From Solobacterium sp. (GTDB taxonomy: Bacteria; Bacillota_I; Bacilli_A; Erysipelotrichales; Erysipelotrichaceae): a stretch of DNA of 48,740 nucleotides. The stretch covers positions 1 through 48,740 of the forward strand of contig JAFWEW010000025.1 in assembly GCA_017512725.1 (NCBI GenBank), in the 5' to 3' direction. Positions within the stretch are counted from its first letter, which is position 1. Each line of letters starts with the position of its first letter. The translations under genes and the position numbers were made by a program. Below are positions 31,752 to 42,724 of this stretch, in pieces. The notes beneath the pieces were generated by a model, which saw nothing but the letters and a program-made list of their open reading frames with translations, made no database searches and was not told where the DNA came from.

Positions 31752-31781
31752 TATAATATTTTTTGCCTGTTTTAATAGGCA
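31752..31781 (+). promoter_or_regulatory. -10 box and small leader hairpin of the coiled-coil gene
   Basis: TATAAT at 31752-31757 has a weak -35. In the leader TGCCT (31764-31768) pairs with AGGCA (31777-31781), reaching into the AGGA ribosome site that serves the ATG at 31793. Confidence 0.45.
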
Positions 31782-31792
31782 GGATTCTTTTT

Positions 31793-34069
31793 ATGAGTTT
31801 AAACGATACGAAACAACACGAACCGAATACAGCGAATACCGCCGATTCGGCCCGCCGCAGCTTTCTTCAGGGGCAGGTAACTGCCGCAGAAATGGTTGCC
31901 AGGGCCGCACAGGCCAGAATTGATGCCAAAAAGCTTCCGGAAGTAAAGAAATGCAGCACTTCGAAAGAGGCGTGGAAGCAGTTTTGTTTTTACTGCAGCA
32001 GGCTGAAGAAGCATTTGTCTGCCGGGAAGAAAGTGAATGAAAACGGCGAAGTGGTTCCGGTTGAAGATCCGCTGTCCTATGAAGGCATCGGATCAGCGCT
32101 CTTCAAATCCTTCGGGGTGTGGCTCTGGATGGTGATACAGGAGATCGCCGTTGTGATCGCACTGGCGTTCAACTGGATATTCGTGAATCTCTGGAAGCTG
32201 ATCTGCTTTATCGGGTTCCAGATCGGACGCTTCTTCCGCTGGTGTAAAGACCGGCTTTACTGGAATTCCCTGAAACGGGATGTGGTCCATCGGCACCGGG
32301 AAGAACAGTTCAATATCTGGAAGGAAAAGAAACGAGCGGAGATCCACGAGAAGAACGTTGCCCGTCAGGTGGCAGCAGTTGAGCGCAAGACCAAGCGCCA
32401 GGAAGAAGCGGAACGCAAAGCTGCGATCCGAAAAGAAGAAAACGCAATCAAACAGGCCCGTCTCGAAGAGGCGGCTGCCAAGAAACATACGGAAGAGATT
32501 CAGGCTGAACTCGCGGCCATTGCCCTTCGCAGACGTGAGGAAGAAGATCGTGTAAGCCTGGAGATCCGCCGCAAGGAAGAGGCTGAGAGAATGCTGATGG
32601 AAGCCAAAGAGACGGAAGAAAAAGAACGTGCTGTTCTGGAGGCGAAACGCCTGGAACAGGAAGAAGCGCGCAAAGAAGCTCTCAAAATGGAAGAAGAGAG
32701 CCGGCAGCGTCTTGAGGTTCTTCGTCTGGAAGAGGAAGAACGTCAGCGTCTTGCGGCTGTCCGGGAAGAGGAGCTGAAACGGCTGAAGGCGGAAGAAGTA
32801 CGCCTGATGGAAGAAAAAAAGAAAGCCGAAGAAGAAGAGAAGCGGCTTGAAGAAGCCCGGGTCGCAGAAGAAGCGCATCTCGAAGCAGAAAAGAAACGCA
32901 TTGAAGAAGAACGGAAAGCTGCCGAAGAAGCGAAGAAGGCGGAAGCACTCCGGATCGAAGAAGAAAAGAAGAAAGCCGCAGAAGAGAAACAGAAAGAAGC
33001 GGACCGGATTGCGGAAGAAAAGGCAAGGGCTGATGAAGCCAAGCGCCTGGAAGAAGTACGCATTGCGGAAGAAAAGGCGAACGAAGAAAAGCGCCGGAAA
33101 GTACTTCAGGCTGCACAGGCTGAAATGAAACGGCAGGAAGAAGAACTTCGGATCGCAGAAGAGACCCGCAAAGCAGAAGAAACTCGAAAAGCAGAAGAAA
33201 CCCGCAAAGCGGAGGAATTTCGCAAAACAGAAGAAGTACAGAAGCAGAGGGCAGAAAAACCTGCCGAACCGGCTGTAACGAAAGCTGCTGAGCCCGAACC
33301 GCCTGCGAAGAAGGTTGCAGAACCGGTCAAAGAAAAGACACCGCTGATTCCATCGAATCTGACGGAAAAGCCGGCACTTGCGGCAATGGCAGTACGGGAT
33401 GCGGTCAAGACACTGCCCGCGACCCTTCCGAATGTTTCGATTCCAAATGCGGAAGAACGGGATCGGCTCCTGAGGGAAGCCCGGGACAAGACTTCGAACT
33501 TCATCCGCAAAGCGATCATCCGTTCGGAAATCGAATCGGTATACGACAATCCGGAGGAAGCAATCAAGCTGACGGTTATCAAGTATGCGATCATCGCACT
33601 GGTAACATCTGCCGGAGCTTATATCGGAGTGCTCAACCGTTCCGATGTCGCAGTGAGCCCGGGATTTGGAAACTTCCTGCTGCTGTTTCTCTCAATCCTG
33701 CTTCTTGGAGCCGGACTGGAGATTGGAGGCGGCATTCTCTGCGGTATTCTGCTGAACAGCACGATGACGGTTTCCAAGACGGCAGTGCTGGAAAAGAACA
33801 GTGTATATACCATCCTGCATGGTCTGCTGTTCTCCTTCGCCGGAGCACTTCTGGCATTTAGCCGGGACAAGTTCCTGGCCGTATTTGCGGCACTGGTACT
33901 GCTGGCGATGATCGGTCATATCTGGGTGCTCTACCGTGTCACAAAAGGAAAGAAGGGTTATTCCCTGGTCGTATATCTCCTGGTCGTGTTTGCGGTCGTA
34001 GCCGTCGTAATGCTTGCGGCAATCGTACTGCGCGGGCCGATCATGGATATCTGGCATGCATTAAAGTAA
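31793..34069 (+). CDS. Long coiled-coil membrane protein, TolA-like in composition
   Basis: I do not recognise this 758-residue protein as a family. After a polar N-terminus it has a hydrophobic stretch (about 105-148) with two possible membrane helices, rich in Trp and Phe. Then about 330 residues (roughly 170-500) of nearly unbroken Glu/Ala/Lys/Arg coiled coil follow, including four tandem 6-residue repeats of the type AEETRK. A Pro/Ala linker leads to a C-terminal block of four to five membrane helices ending IMDIWHALK. The topology places a long rod between two membrane-anchored ends, either spanning the cytoplasm or folding back. It stands alone between efp and ribU with its own promoter and terminator. 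A scaffold or mechanical role in the envelope is a guess. Confidence 0.75.
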   Translation: MSLNDTKQHEPNTANTADSARRSFLQGQVTAAEMVARAAQARIDAKKLPEVKKCSTSKEAWKQFCFYCSRLKKHLSAGKKVNENGEVVPVEDPLSYEGIGSALFKSFGVWLWMVIQEIAVVIALAFNWIFVNLWKLICFIGFQIGRFFRWCKDRLYWNSLKRDVVHRHREEQFNIWKEKKRAEIHEKNVARQVAAVERKTKRQEEAERKAAIRKEENAIKQARLEEAAAKKHTEEIQAELAAIALRRREEEDRVSLEIRRKEEAERMLMEAKETEEKERAVLEAKRLEQEEARKEALKMEEESRQRLEVLRLEEEERQRLAAVREEELKRLKAEEVRLMEEKKKAEEEEKRLEEARVAEEAHLEAEKKRIEEERKAAEEAKKAEALRIEEEKKKAAEEKQKEADRIAEEKARADEAKRLEEVRIAEEKANEEKRRKVLQAAQAEMKRQEEELRIAEETRKAEETRKAEETRKAEEFRKTEEVQKQRAEKPAEPAVTKAAEPEPPAKKVAEPVKEKTPLIPSNLTEKPALAAMAVRDAVKTLPATLPNVSIPNAEERDRLLREARDKTSNFIRKAIIRSEIESVYDNPEEAIKLTVIKYAIIALVTSAGAYIGVLNRSDVAVSPGFGNFLLLFLSILLLGAGLEIGGGILCGILLNSTMTVSKTAVLEKNSVYTILHGLLFSFAGALLAFSRDKFLAVFAALVLLAMIGHIWVLYRVTKGKKGYSLVVYLLVVFAVVAVVMLAAIVLRGPIMDIWHALK
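33155..33226 (+). repeat. 18-bp tandem repeat within the coiled-coil gene
   Basis: Four consecutive 18-bp units (GCAGAAGARACYCGMAAA type) at 33155, 33173, 33191 and 33209, with a decayed fifth at 33227. Each encodes AEE-T/F-RK. The period keeps frame, so copy number can change without a frameshift. Confidence 0.85.
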
Positions 34070-34982: not shown

Positions 34983-36005
34983 ATGGCGAAGTATTCCAGA
35001 ATGCAGAAATACAAAGAGCTCAGAGACTCTCTTCAGAATGATTCCGAATCGAACATTCAGACCAGAGATCTTTATAAATATGAGCAGAAACTGAATCAGA
35101 TCGCTCCTGATCAGTTTAATGCACCTCAGGAACCTTCCCCGGAACGGAACAATTCTCCGCTTCATGCCAGTCAGGGGCGTCCGTATGTACCGGAAGAAAC
35201 ACAGGCACCTGTGCCGGCAGCGGAAAACATTCCCAGTAGTAAAGGGTTCTCCAAAGAGTATTTCCAGAACAGCGCCAATTATACAACCGCATTTAATAAT
35301 GAATATCTTGATGATTACATCCGGGAAGTAAAGGAATACAACATCAATCAGGGGGTTGCCGGATCAGCCAATACCGATCTGGATATTCTGAAGAATCTGC
35401 GGGGGGAAAGCACGGCTGCTCCGCGCAAGCCGTATCCGGAAGAAGAGGAAGAGCCTGCACCCAGACCGGTGAAGCCTTCCTACCAGGAAGCAGCTGCCAA
35501 GCCAGCTGTGAAAGAAGCGGATACCGCGGATATTTCCTTTGGCAATGACCGGAAGAAAGCTGCTTATGCAGAACCGGAACCATCTGCGGCAAAAGAAAAG
35601 CCGTATCTCGACTTCCTGGATGAGGAAGAGGAAGAAGAGGAAGCACGGCCGTATTCCGATACCCAGACAATGACGAAGGAAGATATCGCTGCCGAAGTAC
35701 AGCGTCTGATCAACGGTGCGCAGAAGAAGAATGAAAGTGCATCCAAGAAGGGCAGGAACCTCTTTGCGGATGATACGGATACGTACGGGGTGCCGCGTTC
35801 CACCAACCAGCAGATCCTGAATGAAACCACACAGATGCGTGCTCAGCTGGATGACTATGAGGACAACCTGAATGATGTGACCGACAAAGTCAATCATACG
35901 AACCAGATTCTGAATGTTGTGCTGATCATTCTGATCATTGCGCTTTCTCTGGTTCTGGCAGTGGTTATTTACTGGGTGCTGCTGTCGAAAGGAGTCATCA
36001 GCTGA
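34983..36005 (+). CDS. Acidic tail-anchored membrane protein, function unknown
   Basis: The 340-residue protein is mostly hydrophilic and low in complexity. A basic N-terminus (MAKYSRMQKYKELRDSL), Pro/Glu-rich linkers and a short conserved-looking block (SKEYFQNSANYTTAFNNEYLDDY, about 88-110) come first. Then follow an acidic run of Glu, a coiled coil near 265-305 and a single C-terminal membrane helix (NVVLIILIIALSLVLAVVIYW), with only seven residues after it. Most of the chain should therefore be cytoplasmic, anchored by its tail. I recognise no family. It overlaps cmk by one base (TGATG), so translation of cmk is coupled to it. An adaptor or division-related role is possible but speculative. 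Confidence 0.75.
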   Translation: MAKYSRMQKYKELRDSLQNDSESNIQTRDLYKYEQKLNQIAPDQFNAPQEPSPERNNSPLHASQGRPYVPEETQAPVPAAENIPSSKGFSKEYFQNSANYTTAFNNEYLDDYIREVKEYNINQGVAGSANTDLDILKNLRGESTAAPRKPYPEEEEEPAPRPVKPSYQEAAAKPAVKEADTADISFGNDRKKAAYAEPEPSAAKEKPYLDFLDEEEEEEEARPYSDTQTMTKEDIAAEVQRLINGAQKKNESASKKGRNLFADDTDTYGVPRSTNQQILNETTQMRAQLDDYEDNLNDVTDKVNHTNQILNVVLIILIIALSLVLAVVIYWVLLSKGVIS

Positions 36006-38076: not shown

Positions 38077-41000
38077 TTATTCGAGATGGAAACCGGTGTC
38101 ATCCCAGTGACCCTGGCCGACCCAGTTGCCGTTTTCATCCCAGTAACCATACTGGCTGTAATCGGGCTGTACTTCGATCTGTACCCAGTTGCCGTTCTCA
38201 TCAATATAACCATTCACATCCGGGTTTTCGTAGTACTGTGCAACCGTACATGCAGTATTGTCGCTGCCGTCTGCGGTTGATGATCCGCCGCAGACTTTTA
38301 CCTGACCATAGAGATCTCCGACATAGCCTTTATAGAACCCGTTGTTGGAAGAAATCTCACCGATCGGATTGTCATCGACATAGACCGTGCCCCAGTATTC
38401 ACCGCCTCCGACGAGCCAGGAGAGATCCGCAAGGCAGGCACCCCACTGGTCGATGTCATTGTAGGCGTCGTGGAGACTGATGTTCCGTTCCGAGCCGGAA
38501 CAGATGCCGTTGGCACCGCCCCAGGATACCGTCAGGATACCCATCTGATCGAAGCGGGCACTGATGCCGCCCAGACCAAGGTATTCCGATTCGGATGCGG
38601 CATACTGGAGGTATTCATCCACACTGACCATTGGCATGGATTCCAGACCAGCACTGGACACCAGAGAAGTAACGGTTCCGCCGCCGTCCATGGCGAATTC
38701 TGCACGGACATGCGGGAAGGTGCCGTAGATATAAGTGACCGACTGAACATCATCCGGTGCCGGAATCGCTTCCGGAACACCCCAGATCTCTTCTTCTTTG
38801 TTCAGAAGCAGACGGTTGATGTTGCCCGGAATGTTCAGCGAACTCTTGTAAGAGGTATAATACGTTTCTTTTCCTTTTTCTGCCTTGTCGTAACCAACCC
38901 ATACACAGTTGGTGTACTGCGAGGTGCTTGCGACCATCCATTTGTCTTTCATCTGGCCGCGGGGAATGCCATACTGCACACCGTCAGAACCCCAGTCGGT
39001 AGTACCGGTCTTCGCATAGACCGGATAGCTTCTTGCCAGTACCTGCATGTAGTTGAAGTACGAACCGGTTACGTTGTTGGCTTCCAGTTCCGTTGCGAGG
39101 TAGGCACTTCCGGAGGAAAGGGCACGGACATTCTGATTCGCGGAATAGTATTCCGAACCATCGGAAGACATTACGACTTTTTCAATCGTATGCGGCTGGT
39201 TGTAGATGCCCTTGTTGATGAGCATTGCGTGAGCGCCAGCCAGTTCCTTACAGGTTGTTTCAAACGTAGTTCCGCCGATCGCATAGGAGAGATGGAAATT
39301 TTCCTGCTTGACTCTTGAGAAGCCGATCGACTGCAGATATTCAACCACTTTTTCCGGACCGATCTTGTTCACGACACGTTCCAGTGTCAGGATCGCCGGA
39401 ATGTTGAGGGAGTTGCCGACCGCATCCTTGATCGTGACATCGCCGGCATAGTTGCCGCTGGCATTGACCAGGACCATGCTTTCCATCGGATAGGTAATTG
39501 GCTTATCCAGCAGGACTTCATCCAGCGAGTAGCCCAGATACTCAAATGCAAGGGCATAGGAGAGCAGGGGCTTGACGCTGGAACCCGGCTGTTTGTAGTT
39601 CATCGTGGCACGGTTCAGAAGACGGGCACCGTCATAGTTGCGGCCGCCGCCGATTGCGACAATCGCACCATTCCGGTTATCCATGGAGATCATGGCAACC
39701 TGGATCAGATCATCCGGGAAGACAACGGTGGATTCTCCGTTCTGGATCGTTTCCACTTCTTCCTGCATCTGCCGGTTGAGGTGGGTATAGATGCTCATGC
39801 CCCGTACCGTCGGGTCGGAACCGGTCAGTTCCATGGCTTCTTCGAGAACAACGTCAATGTACGACTGGTACTGACTGTCTTCGGTTGCTTCACGGACATC
39901 ACCGACCAGCGTATCTTCAACCTTGATGCCTTTTGCCAGTTTGAGTTCGTCATCCGTGATATAACCGTGGTACTTCATCAGCTGCAGAACTTCATTGCGG
40001 CGGGTCGTACCGTAATCCAGATAGTCATACGGGTTATACCGGTTCGGCAGGTTTACGATGCCTGCCAGCATGGCTGCTTCCGAAAGATTCAGCTCATTGC
40101 AGTTCTTGCCGAAGTAGTACTGTGAGGCACGCTGCACACCGCGGATATTGCCGCCGAAGTTCAGCTTGTTGAGATATAGCGTGAAGATTTCCTTTTTCGA
40201 CAGGAGCTTTTCCAGCTTCATCGCAAGATAGATCTGCTGAACTTTATACTCAATCGATTTGGTACGTTCGGTACCGGTATCTTCGGCGTTCATCGATTCC
40301 ACCGAGAAGTAGGTATTCTTTACCAGCTGCATCGTGAAGGTGGAACCGCCCTGACCGAAGGAATGAGTTTTGATGTTGTCGATGAGCGCTTTGGTAAAAC
40401 GCGGGATGTCAAATCCGAAGTGGGAGAAGAAGCGGCTGTCTTCGACCGACAGGAACGCATCGACCAGTGCTTCCGGACATTTGTCATATGTGATGTTCTG
40501 ACGCAGGTAGACACCGACTTCCGTAACGAGTTCGCCCTGATCGTCATAGATCTTTGTCGACTCTTCACCGACGAAGTCCGTCAGGTTGAGATCCGGAGAA
40601 TTGCTGGTCATCTTGTTGATCATGACAATTCCCGTAATGCCGGCGATCAGTTCAAGTACGACGGCAACGACAAGAACCGCCGTCAGGATGACAAACCATT
40701 TCTTCGGCTTACCGGAAGAACCGGCTTTCTTTTTACCGGGTCCATCCGGATCGTTCGGTCCGCCGGTACCCGTTTCGGTCTGTTTTGTCTTTTTGCCTTT
40801 GAGAGGAGTTATTTCTTCCGGCTGTTCTTCTTCCTCCTCGTCTTCATACTCGTCATCATCATATTCATCGTCGTATTCGTCATCATAGTCGTAATCATAT
40901 TCCTCATCGTCATCTTCATATTCTTTGGTCTTGGCGTGTTTGGAATCTTCATACTCGTAATCATCCTCGTAGTCATCGTAATCGTCATACGCGTCATACT

Positions 41001-42636
41001 CGGAATCCTTCGCTTTCTGGTCCAGACTGCGGACATCGGAAAGATCGACGGTAACGGTTTTGCTGTTATCTGCTGAAGGAGTGAGCGTGGAAGAATTGAA
41101 TACCGGAGGAACGGCAGGGGGCTCTTTTTTCAGTGCATCGGACTGCTGTTTTTTCTTCAGAGCAGCTGCGTTAAGTGCAGCAGTTCCTGCAGCGGTTGCG
41201 CCCAGCAGCATCCCCGAAGCGGCACCTGAAGCCGCGGCGGCTGTACCGGCAGAAGCGGCTTTGAATGCCGGAGCGGTATAAGAAGACTTTGCCGGTTCAC
41301 TGAAGACCGATGTCTTTGTGCCGGAGAACGAAACCTCTGGTTCCTTTACAGAAGAGAACGACAGGGTCGCACCGGAAGAAGGCGTGGAATAGGAATTCAC
41401 CGGCTTCTGGCTGGCAGGAGCAGGAGACTTCTGAGGAATATTGAATGCCGGAGGCTGAACCGCTTTGGCTCCTGCAGGCCTGGATGCCGGTGCAGAGGTA
41501 AAGCCAATGGAAGCGGAGCCGGAATCGGCAGATTTGAATACCGGTGCAGAAGCGCTGCCGGCTGCAGAAGAACCGGAACCGACCGGCTTGAATACCGGTG
41601 CGGAAGCGGTATTGGCCGAAACAGAAGCAGAGTCAACCGGCTTGAATACCGGAGGCTTGTTCTGCGTCTGGGAAGAGGTACTGTAAACCTTGGTCGCATC
41701 CTGAGAAGGTGCGGCACGCATGCCATCAAACGGACGGATACTCTGCATCGGCTGATAAACCTGTGTCTTGGAAGGATCTGCAGCTGCTTTTCTGGATGTT
41801 GTTCTCGGACGGAACGGATCATCCACCGTGCTGCTGGAAGAAGCAGAATAGGAACTGCCATAGGAGACAGAGGATAGCTTTGAATTAACAGTCGTCTTTG
41901 GTGCTTCAGAAACAAACGCCTTTGGCTGTGTACCATAACCCGCATTGGAAGATGCTGCAGGGCGGTTAGAAGAAGCGGCAGGAATCTGTGCCGTGTTACG
42001 GATCGAACGGGAATCCTCCGGGAAGAAATTATTGTCCGGTGTCAGGATCGGACCGGAAGAAGTCTTGCCGGCGGCGTTTGGTTTATAGGGGCTTGCCTGC
42101 TGTCTGGGCGCACGGCTGCTGTTAACCGGAGCCGAAGCGGTTCTTGGAGACGAAGTGCCGTTGGAAGAAGGCAGGATCTTTTCCAGGGAGGAACGGGTCG
42201 ATGCACCGGAGCTGGAACCGGACGGGAACACATTAGTGTCGGCGGTAAGAACACGGCCGGAGCCGCCGGCAGAACGGCGGGCACTCATCCGGGCACGCTC
42301 ACTGTCATTCATGTCACGGGTCGTCACGGGGTCTTCAAAAAAGGAAAGATCGTATGGAGAAAAGACACGGTTCGTGCTGATCGTGGGACGTGTTCGCGGG
42401 GATTTCAGCGGCTGCCGTTTCACCGGTTCACTGGCAGGTTCCGGAGAACTGCTGGCCGGTGCGGAAGCGGGCGAAGCCGAAGGAAAATCCGGCGGCGTTG
42501 TGCGCTTTACCGGTTCATTATTGTTATAAGATTCCGGCGGTACGTTAAATACCGACTTTCGGGCCGGTTTGCCGCTGAAATACTGTGTATCTTCATAATC
42601 ATTGAAATCCGATACGTTTTTTTCAAAATCTTCCAT
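38077..42636 (-). CDS. Giant class A penicillin-binding protein (PBP1A type)
   Basis: This 1519-residue bifunctional enzyme polymerises glycan and crosslinks peptides in the cell wall. A cytoplasmic head of about 645 residues is disordered: Ser/Pro/Ala-rich, with repeats and a Tyr/Asp/Glu-rich block near 545-605. One membrane helix (about 646-675) follows. The GT51 transglycosylase domain starts with VEDSRFFSHFGFD and GGSTFTMQLVKN. The transpeptidase domain has SSVK (Ser1019), SLN (Ser1076) and KTGT (Lys1209). After it comes an extracellular C-terminal region ending in DENGNW repeats. Usual PBP1A proteins are 700-900 residues. The ATG at 42636 has GGAGG eleven bases upstream; a TTG at 42654 overlaps that site. 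It is divergent from dnaE and ends at a UUCG-loop terminator. Confidence 0.93.
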   Translation of the reverse strand: MEDFEKNVSDFNDYEDTQYFSGKPARKSVFNVPPESYNNNEPVKRTTPPDFPSASPASAPASSSPEPASEPVKRQPLKSPRTRPTISTNRVFSPYDLSFFEDPVTTRDMNDSERARMSARRSAGGSGRVLTADTNVFPSGSSSGASTRSSLEKILPSSNGTSSPRTASAPVNSSRAPRQQASPYKPNAAGKTSSGPILTPDNNFFPEDSRSIRNTAQIPAASSNRPAASSNAGYGTQPKAFVSEAPKTTVNSKLSSVSYGSSYSASSSSTVDDPFRPRTTSRKAAADPSKTQVYQPMQSIRPFDGMRAAPSQDATKVYSTSSQTQNKPPVFKPVDSASVSANTASAPVFKPVGSGSSAAGSASAPVFKSADSGSASIGFTSAPASRPAGAKAVQPPAFNIPQKSPAPASQKPVNSYSTPSSGATLSFSSVKEPEVSFSGTKTSVFSEPAKSSYTAPAFKAASAGTAAAASGAASGMLLGATAAGTAALNAAALKKKQQSDALKKEPPAVPPVFNSSTLTPSADNSKTVTVDLSDVRSLDQKAKDSEYDAYDDYDDYEDDYEYEDSKHAKTKEYEDDDEEYDYDYDDEYDDEYDDDEYEDEEEEEQPEEITPLKGKKTKQTETGTGGPNDPDGPGKKKAGSSGKPKKWFVILTAVLVVAVVLELIAGITGIVMINKMTSNSPDLNLTDFVGEESTKIYDDQGELVTEVGVYLRQNITYDKCPEALVDAFLSVEDSRFFSHFGFDIPRFTKALIDNIKTHSFGQGGSTFTMQLVKNTYFSVESMNAEDTGTERTKSIEYKVQQIYLAMKLEKLLSKKEIFTLYLNKLNFGGNIRGVQRASQYYFGKNCNELNLSEAAMLAGIVNLPNRYNPYDYLDYGTTRRNEVLQLMKYHGYITDDELKLAKGIKVEDTLVGDVREATEDSQYQSYIDVVLEEAMELTGSDPTVRGMSIYTHLNRQMQEEVETIQNGESTVVFPDDLIQVAMISMDNRNGAIVAIGGGRNYDGARLLNRATMNYKQPGSSVKPLLSYALAFEYLGYSLDEVLLDKPITYPMESMVLVNASGNYAGDVTIKDAVGNSLNIPAILTLERVVNKIGPEKVVEYLQSIGFSRVKQENFHLSYAIGGTTFETTCKELAGAHAMLINKGIYNQPHTIEKVVMSSDGSEYYSANQNVRALSSGSAYLATELEANNVTGSYFNYMQVLARSYPVYAKTGTTDWGSDGVQYGIPRGQMKDKWMVASTSQYTNCVWVGYDKAEKGKETYYTSYKSSLNIPGNINRLLLNKEEEIWGVPEAIPAPDDVQSVTYIYGTFPHVRAEFAMDGGGTVTSLVSSAGLESMPMVSVDEYLQYAASESEYLGLGGISARFDQMGILTVSWGGANGICSGSERNISLHDAYNDIDQWGACLADLSWLVGGGEYWGTVYVDDNPIGEISSNNGFYKGYVGDLYGQVKVCGGSSTADGSDNTACTVAQYYENPDVNGYIDENGNWVQIEVQPDYSQYGYWDENGNWVGQGHWDDTGFHLE
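41493..41652 (-). repeat. 54-bp repeats in the PBP disordered head
   Basis: Three copies of an 18-residue unit starting PVFK-[PS] occur with a 54-bp period (PPVFKPVDSAS, APVFKPVGSGS, APVFKSADSGS). They are degenerate at the DNA level but keep frame. Confidence 0.7.
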
Positions 42637-42724
42637 ACGAAAAAAAACCTCCAAAAAGATGCCTGTTTATTTTACCATGCGCGATTATATATTAAAAGCC
42701 AATGATTCGCGGTGTTCCGGGCAG

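Follow-up and report, generated by a model that had tools for sequence, protein, structure and literature searches.

A few species are known to control their class A PBPs from the cytoplasmic side, mostly via short tails. In mycobacteria, PonA1 is a class A PBP with a long, unconserved cytoplasmic tail that is phosphorylated by PknB, and truncation of this tail speeds elongation (PMC4483258). In Bacillus, Listeria and Streptococcus, cytoplasmic mini-domains of class A PBPs are bound by GpsB (PMC6335420). The PBP1 of Clostridioides difficile has a disordered cytosolic tail of 46 residues, which is dispensable in laboratory conditions (PMC12539705). StkP carries a juxtamembrane disordered domain with Thr phosphorylation and recruitment, and the predicted StkP substrate motif fixes the residue class at pT+3 (PMC12077195). 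Nothing closer emerged from a search of the literature for further class A PBPs with very long heads, or for PBP condensates.

Here we looked at a class A PBP with a predicted cytoplasmic head of about 645 residues, encoded in a window (the whole stretch of DNA analysed, 48,740 nucleotides) from Solobacterium sp. The window's genome (G000) measures 2.72 Mb in 45 contigs, and it belongs to an uncultured gut bacterium whose nearest relatives among named records are Solobacterium-like Erysipelotrichaceae, assembled from the gut of cattle, sheep and deer; the owners of long heads are known here from metagenome assemblies. Like PonA1, the protein is a class A PBP with a long and poorly conserved tail, probably cytoplasmic, candidate Thr sites and a PASTA kinase in the genome, but it belongs to another phylum, and phosphorylation, demonstrated in PonA1, is conjectured here. 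It shares with the GpsB-bound mini-domains its place on a class A PBP and a putative arginine-helix docking element, whereas those tails are short and their SRxxR(R/K) motif is absent from this head. The C. difficile PBP1, also a class A PBP from Bacillota, likewise has an N-terminus that is cytosolic and disordered, yet this tail, dispensable in laboratory conditions, is about 14 times shorter. The StkP domain resembles the head in being a disordered juxtamembrane segment in wall-synthesis control, but it sits on the kinase itself. The features of the locus are collected in Table 1.

Table 1. Features of the PBP gene and of its product, with positions in the window.
Feature	Residues	Position	Strand	Basis or remark
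Ribosome-binding site GGAGG		42648..42652	(-)	5' of ATG 42636
Whole gene, class A PBP	1519 aa + stop	38077..42636	(-)	start ATG 42636
Head, predicted cytoplasmic and disordered	1-645	40702..42636	(-)	AF2, composition
Conserved island, TRPTISTNRVFSPYDLSFFEDPVTTRDMNDSERARMSARR	82-121	42274..42393	(-)	identity with relatives
Predicted helix	111-122	42271..42306	(-)	AF2, block pLDDT 76
LT-D-N-FP segment 1, VLTADTNVFP	129-138	42223..42252	(-)	
LT-D-N-FP segment 2, ILTPDNNFFP	197-206	42019..42048	(-)	
T-x-[IV]-[YF] motif TQVY	291-294	41755..41766	(-)	
T-x-[IV]-[YF] motif TKVY	315-318	41683..41694	(-)	resembles TKIY of short heads
Three 18-residue PVFK repeats	329-382	41491..41652	(-)	absent from relatives
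Asp/Glu/Tyr block	546-604	40825..41001	(-)	absent from relatives
Transmembrane helix	646-672	40621..40701	(-)	AF2 pLDDT up to 95; hydropathy
Glycosyltransferase GT51 domain (PF00912)	703-887	39976..40530	(-)	E 7e-55
Transpeptidase domain (PF00905)	about 983-1263	38848..39690	(-)	E 1.5e-18
Two GYxDENGNW motifs, extracellular C-terminus		38104..38220	(-)	

Judged from its domains and motifs, the catalytic part of this PBP is ordinary. The two domains expected of a class A PBP were found, GT51 with the motifs EDSRFF and GGSTFTMQ, and a transpeptidase domain with SxxK, SxN and KTG in the forms SSVK, SLN and KTG (residues 1019, 1076 and 1209), whose catalytic letters are invariant across 12 orthologues. 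PF00905 was missed with the full-length protein and was matched after removal of the head. The gene adjoins dnaE in the window, and dnaE also neighbours the head in genome G068. This PBP ends in two copies of a motif of type G[YW]WDENGNW, and the genome's third class A PBP ends in one (G000:C32:262-306), with a single weak match (E 0.01) elsewhere in the same genome; the motif may serve outside the cell as a tag for sorting or for binding to the wall.

The original prediction, which described a 645-residue disordered head, would have been overturned by translation beginning near residue 640, so that the head is never made. We looked for such a start. Of the in-frame ATGs up to residue 676, none is preceded by a ribosome-binding site except ATG 42636. 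The ATGs closest to residue 640 are those of residues 672 and 676, and a start near residue 640 is unsupported because these lie within or past the membrane helix, which leaves no suitable internal start upstream of it. An internal start giving a short tail was thus rejected, since the other in-frame ATGs have no ribosome-binding site. The orthologues L006 and L008 have a start resembling that of the window's PBP. The head is also under purifying selection at the codon level, and long heads recur in independently assembled genomes. No evidence in favour of a start near residue 640 was found, and we consider this artefact extremely improbable. The head is encoded by an open reading frame that is under selection and has a start of its own.

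The length of about 645 residues follows from the AF2 model, which places a single membrane helix at 646-672. If this helix is oriented as class A PBP topology and the basic juxtamembrane residues suggest, the head would lie in the cytoplasm and the catalytic domains outside the cell. AF2 modelling of residues 1-673 with seven sequences gave a mean pLDDT of 44.9, with 517 of the 673 residues under 50, which is consistent with disorder and no proof of it. Besides the helix at 111-122, the only predicted helix of at least four residues in the head spans residues 3-6. The composition (16.2% Ser, 12% Ala, 10.2% Pro) agrees with the Ser/Pro-rich head of the original prediction, and the sequence features that it listed were all seen again: the 18-residue PVFK repeats, which begin at 329, 347 and 365 and are thus spaced by exactly 18, the two [VI]LT-D-N-FP segments and the Tyr/Asp/Glu block near the membrane. 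No Pfam domain was matched in the head. NCBIfam matches to SepX/GlpR and to sigma factors were rejected, being low-complexity stretches below the cut-offs of these families.

Long low-complexity segments are common in the membrane proteins of this genome, which counts against the docking role proposed below. Near the PBP gene, the window encodes (34983-36005, + strand) a protein of 340 residues that has no match in Pfam. Most of it is acidic and of low complexity, a single hydrophobic helix lies at its C-terminus, and it is likely another disordered membrane protein. Another product without a Pfam match (31763-34069, + strand; 768 residues) contains a long Glu/Lys/Ala-rich probable coiled coil flanked on both sides by hydrophobic segments.

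Comparison with related genomes, which the original prediction had proposed as a check, covered 75 heads of relatives with a median of 45 residues. The view that short tails are normal therefore stands among the relatives, although the long tail of the mycobacterial PonA1 goes against it as a general rule (PMC4483258). Heads of at least 399 residues were found only in this genome and in five others, and the six form one clade in a quick tree of the catalytic domain (SH-aLRT 98). The other long heads measure 525 (L066), 457 (L067), 399 (L068) and 404 (L070) residues, and that of G068, split across two contigs, about 527 once joined via a 30-residue overlap, from which we treated L065 as the same genome as G068. 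The nearest genomes, G010 and G028, are 94-97% identical over the part seen, their contigs being cut so that the heads fall outside this comparison. Two apparent 1600-residue frames in another family were rejected as long heads, their heads being short. Elsewhere, Anaerorhabdus furcosa (L098) has an independent 297-residue Lys/Thr/Ser-rich head on a relative of this PBP. In the window's genome the third class A PBP (L161:259-3120, - strand) has a low-complexity, Pro/Glu/Ala-rich head of about 240 residues, and a disordered head also arose in a paralogue of G005.

Rates of change were obtained from two close species, G007 and G068, a pair that stands outside the window's own genome; dN/dS was 0.28 in the N-terminal 343 codons and 0.13 in the C-terminal part of the head, as against 0.02 in the catalytic part. 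On these codon comparisons the rate in the head exceeds that in the catalytic part 7- to 14-fold, and the head is nevertheless under purifying selection. Conservation within the head is uneven: between the same two species aromatics are kept at 96% (Phe 18/18), ILVM at 89%, the whole head at 80% and Ser/Thr at 72%. The higher conservation of aromatics and ILVM than of Ser/Thr means that short binding motifs in tolerant filler fit better than a mass of phosphosites. A 41-codon stretch containing the island shows zero amino-acid replacements between G007 and G068. The island of the window's PBP is 65-73% identical in G007 and G022, and among 315 genomes of the order (G068 included) its four strong matches are all PBP heads, while the weak ones have E about 1e-3. 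The head is more than a chance feature: long heads recur in five more genomes of the clade, and the G007-G068 pair shows dN/dS of 0.13-0.28 and this unchanged stretch.

Not all of the features emphasized by the original prediction are shared. LT-D-N-FP is common to relatives, with related SGRILTPDNNVFPED segments in G007 and G068 and weaker ones in G022, whereas neither the PVFK repeats nor the Tyr/Asp/Glu block occur outside this genome, which makes both of them poor candidates for a core function. Their absence from relatives had been overlooked, as had the island with its helix, the T-x-[IV]-[YF] motif and the difference between Phe and Ser/Thr conservation. The T-x-[IV]-[YF] motif was found in 19 of the 20 heads of the wider clade against 1.14 expected by shuffling, where related heads are taken as independent. 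In short heads it lies within a longer motif, TKIYxVVHExP, close to the membrane. A TKIY-type HMM searched against 40 genomes gave matches at E below 1e-3 that are all at PBP heads, one being a contig-end fragment; in this genome it gave no match at E 0.3, and the four-residue core alone remains. We take the motif to be ancestral, inherited from the short heads.

The reading that we tentatively place first is a docking tether, disordered and multivalent, which arose in one clade as a short ancestral regulatory tail grew longer and which carries a kinase switch. The head would then be a docking strip that apparently grew recently, where a few short motifs are conserved and the filler around them changes fast. 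An ordinary class A PBP would have had its short cytoplasmic regulatory tail elongated in one small clade. Cytoplasmic wall-synthesis partners would dock on its conserved segments, namely LT-D-N-FP, the V/A-F motifs and the helix-bearing ISTNRVFSPYDLSFFEDPVTTREL...SERxRM island, and fast-changing Ser/Pro/Ala spacers would separate these segments. The PASTA Ser/Thr kinase would phosphorylate at least one T-x-[IV]-[YF] site inherited from the short heads and thereby switch binding or activity, as has been demonstrated for PknB on PonA1; the tether with its switch is proposed because of the analogy with the PonA1 tail phosphorylated by PknB. We infer in this way the cytoplasmic side, the binding of partners, the phosphorylation and its effect on activity. 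The original prediction had suggested a scaffold, a phosphorylation target or a phase-separating region; the comparative data, as patterns of residue conservation, favour docking. Phosphorylation is plausible only at T-x-[IV]-[YF] and not across the Ser/Thr-rich mass, and against a kinase switch Ser/Thr are on average less conserved than the remainder of the head; the Thr of one T-x-V-F in G007 is replaced by Ala in G068. The genome encodes one PASTA kinase, and its FHA matches are confined to a single FHA-ABC protein. A further protein (L158:5263-7125) has PASTA repeats but lacks a kinase domain; about 140 residues at its N-terminus form a segment that is rich in Tyr and Pro and probably cytoplasmic.

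One serious rival to the docking tether is that the disordered spacer grew mostly neutrally, by repeat expansion and low-complexity slippage, on a tail tolerant of length, and that the head adds little beyond a short tail. It is serious because much of the head is genome-specific and because the short C. difficile PBP1 tail is dispensable in laboratory conditions (PMC12539705). Only this genome has the PVFK repeats and the acidic block, head length within the clade ranges from about 400 to 645, dN/dS is 7 to 14 times higher in the head than in the catalytic part, and disordered heads arose also in Anaerorhabdus, in the genome's third PBP and in the G005 paralogue. Largely neutral growth fits poorly with a dN/dS of 0.13-0.28, with an island lacking replacements and with the retention of all 18 Phe, nor would it explain an island kept at 65-73% identity between species, and we consider this reading unlikely, though less so than the others that follow. 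Somewhat less likely still is a wider role, in which the head would be a clade-specific scaffold gathering several wall-synthesis proteins via repeated aromatic motifs and the 40-residue docking element, with kinase control at T-x-[IV]-[YF].

The island may instead bind GpsB or DivIVA, its N-capped arginine helix recruiting the enzyme to the machinery of division or elongation. In the tails of class A PBPs, GpsB recognizes a conserved arginine that adjoins a helix-capping residue (PMC6335420), the predicted helix at 111-122 opens with [ST]-E-[RK]-x-R in which the Arg is invariant, and the genome encodes both a GpsB-like and a DivIVA-like protein. This remains doubtful: the [ST]RxxR[RK] motif is absent from the head, the B. 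subtilis site is membrane-proximal while the helix here is about 525 residues distant from the membrane, the gpsB-like gene adjoins a different class A PBP with an Arg-rich tail, and a large part of the island does not belong to the helix. Condensation of wall-synthesis proteins, driven by aromatic stickers on the low-complexity chain, would agree with the sticker-and-spacer pattern of conservation and with the nine copies of [PSTDN][VAI]F in this head against 2.0 expected, an excess that comes partly from the tandem repeat. The excess is clear in G000 and G007 only, and aromatic residues are only modestly represented (F 3.9%, Y 3.9%), which makes condensation quite improbable.

For the study of class A PBPs, this head is a natural experiment on the growth of disordered regulatory tails and their binding, and its island provides a defined 40-residue candidate docking element.
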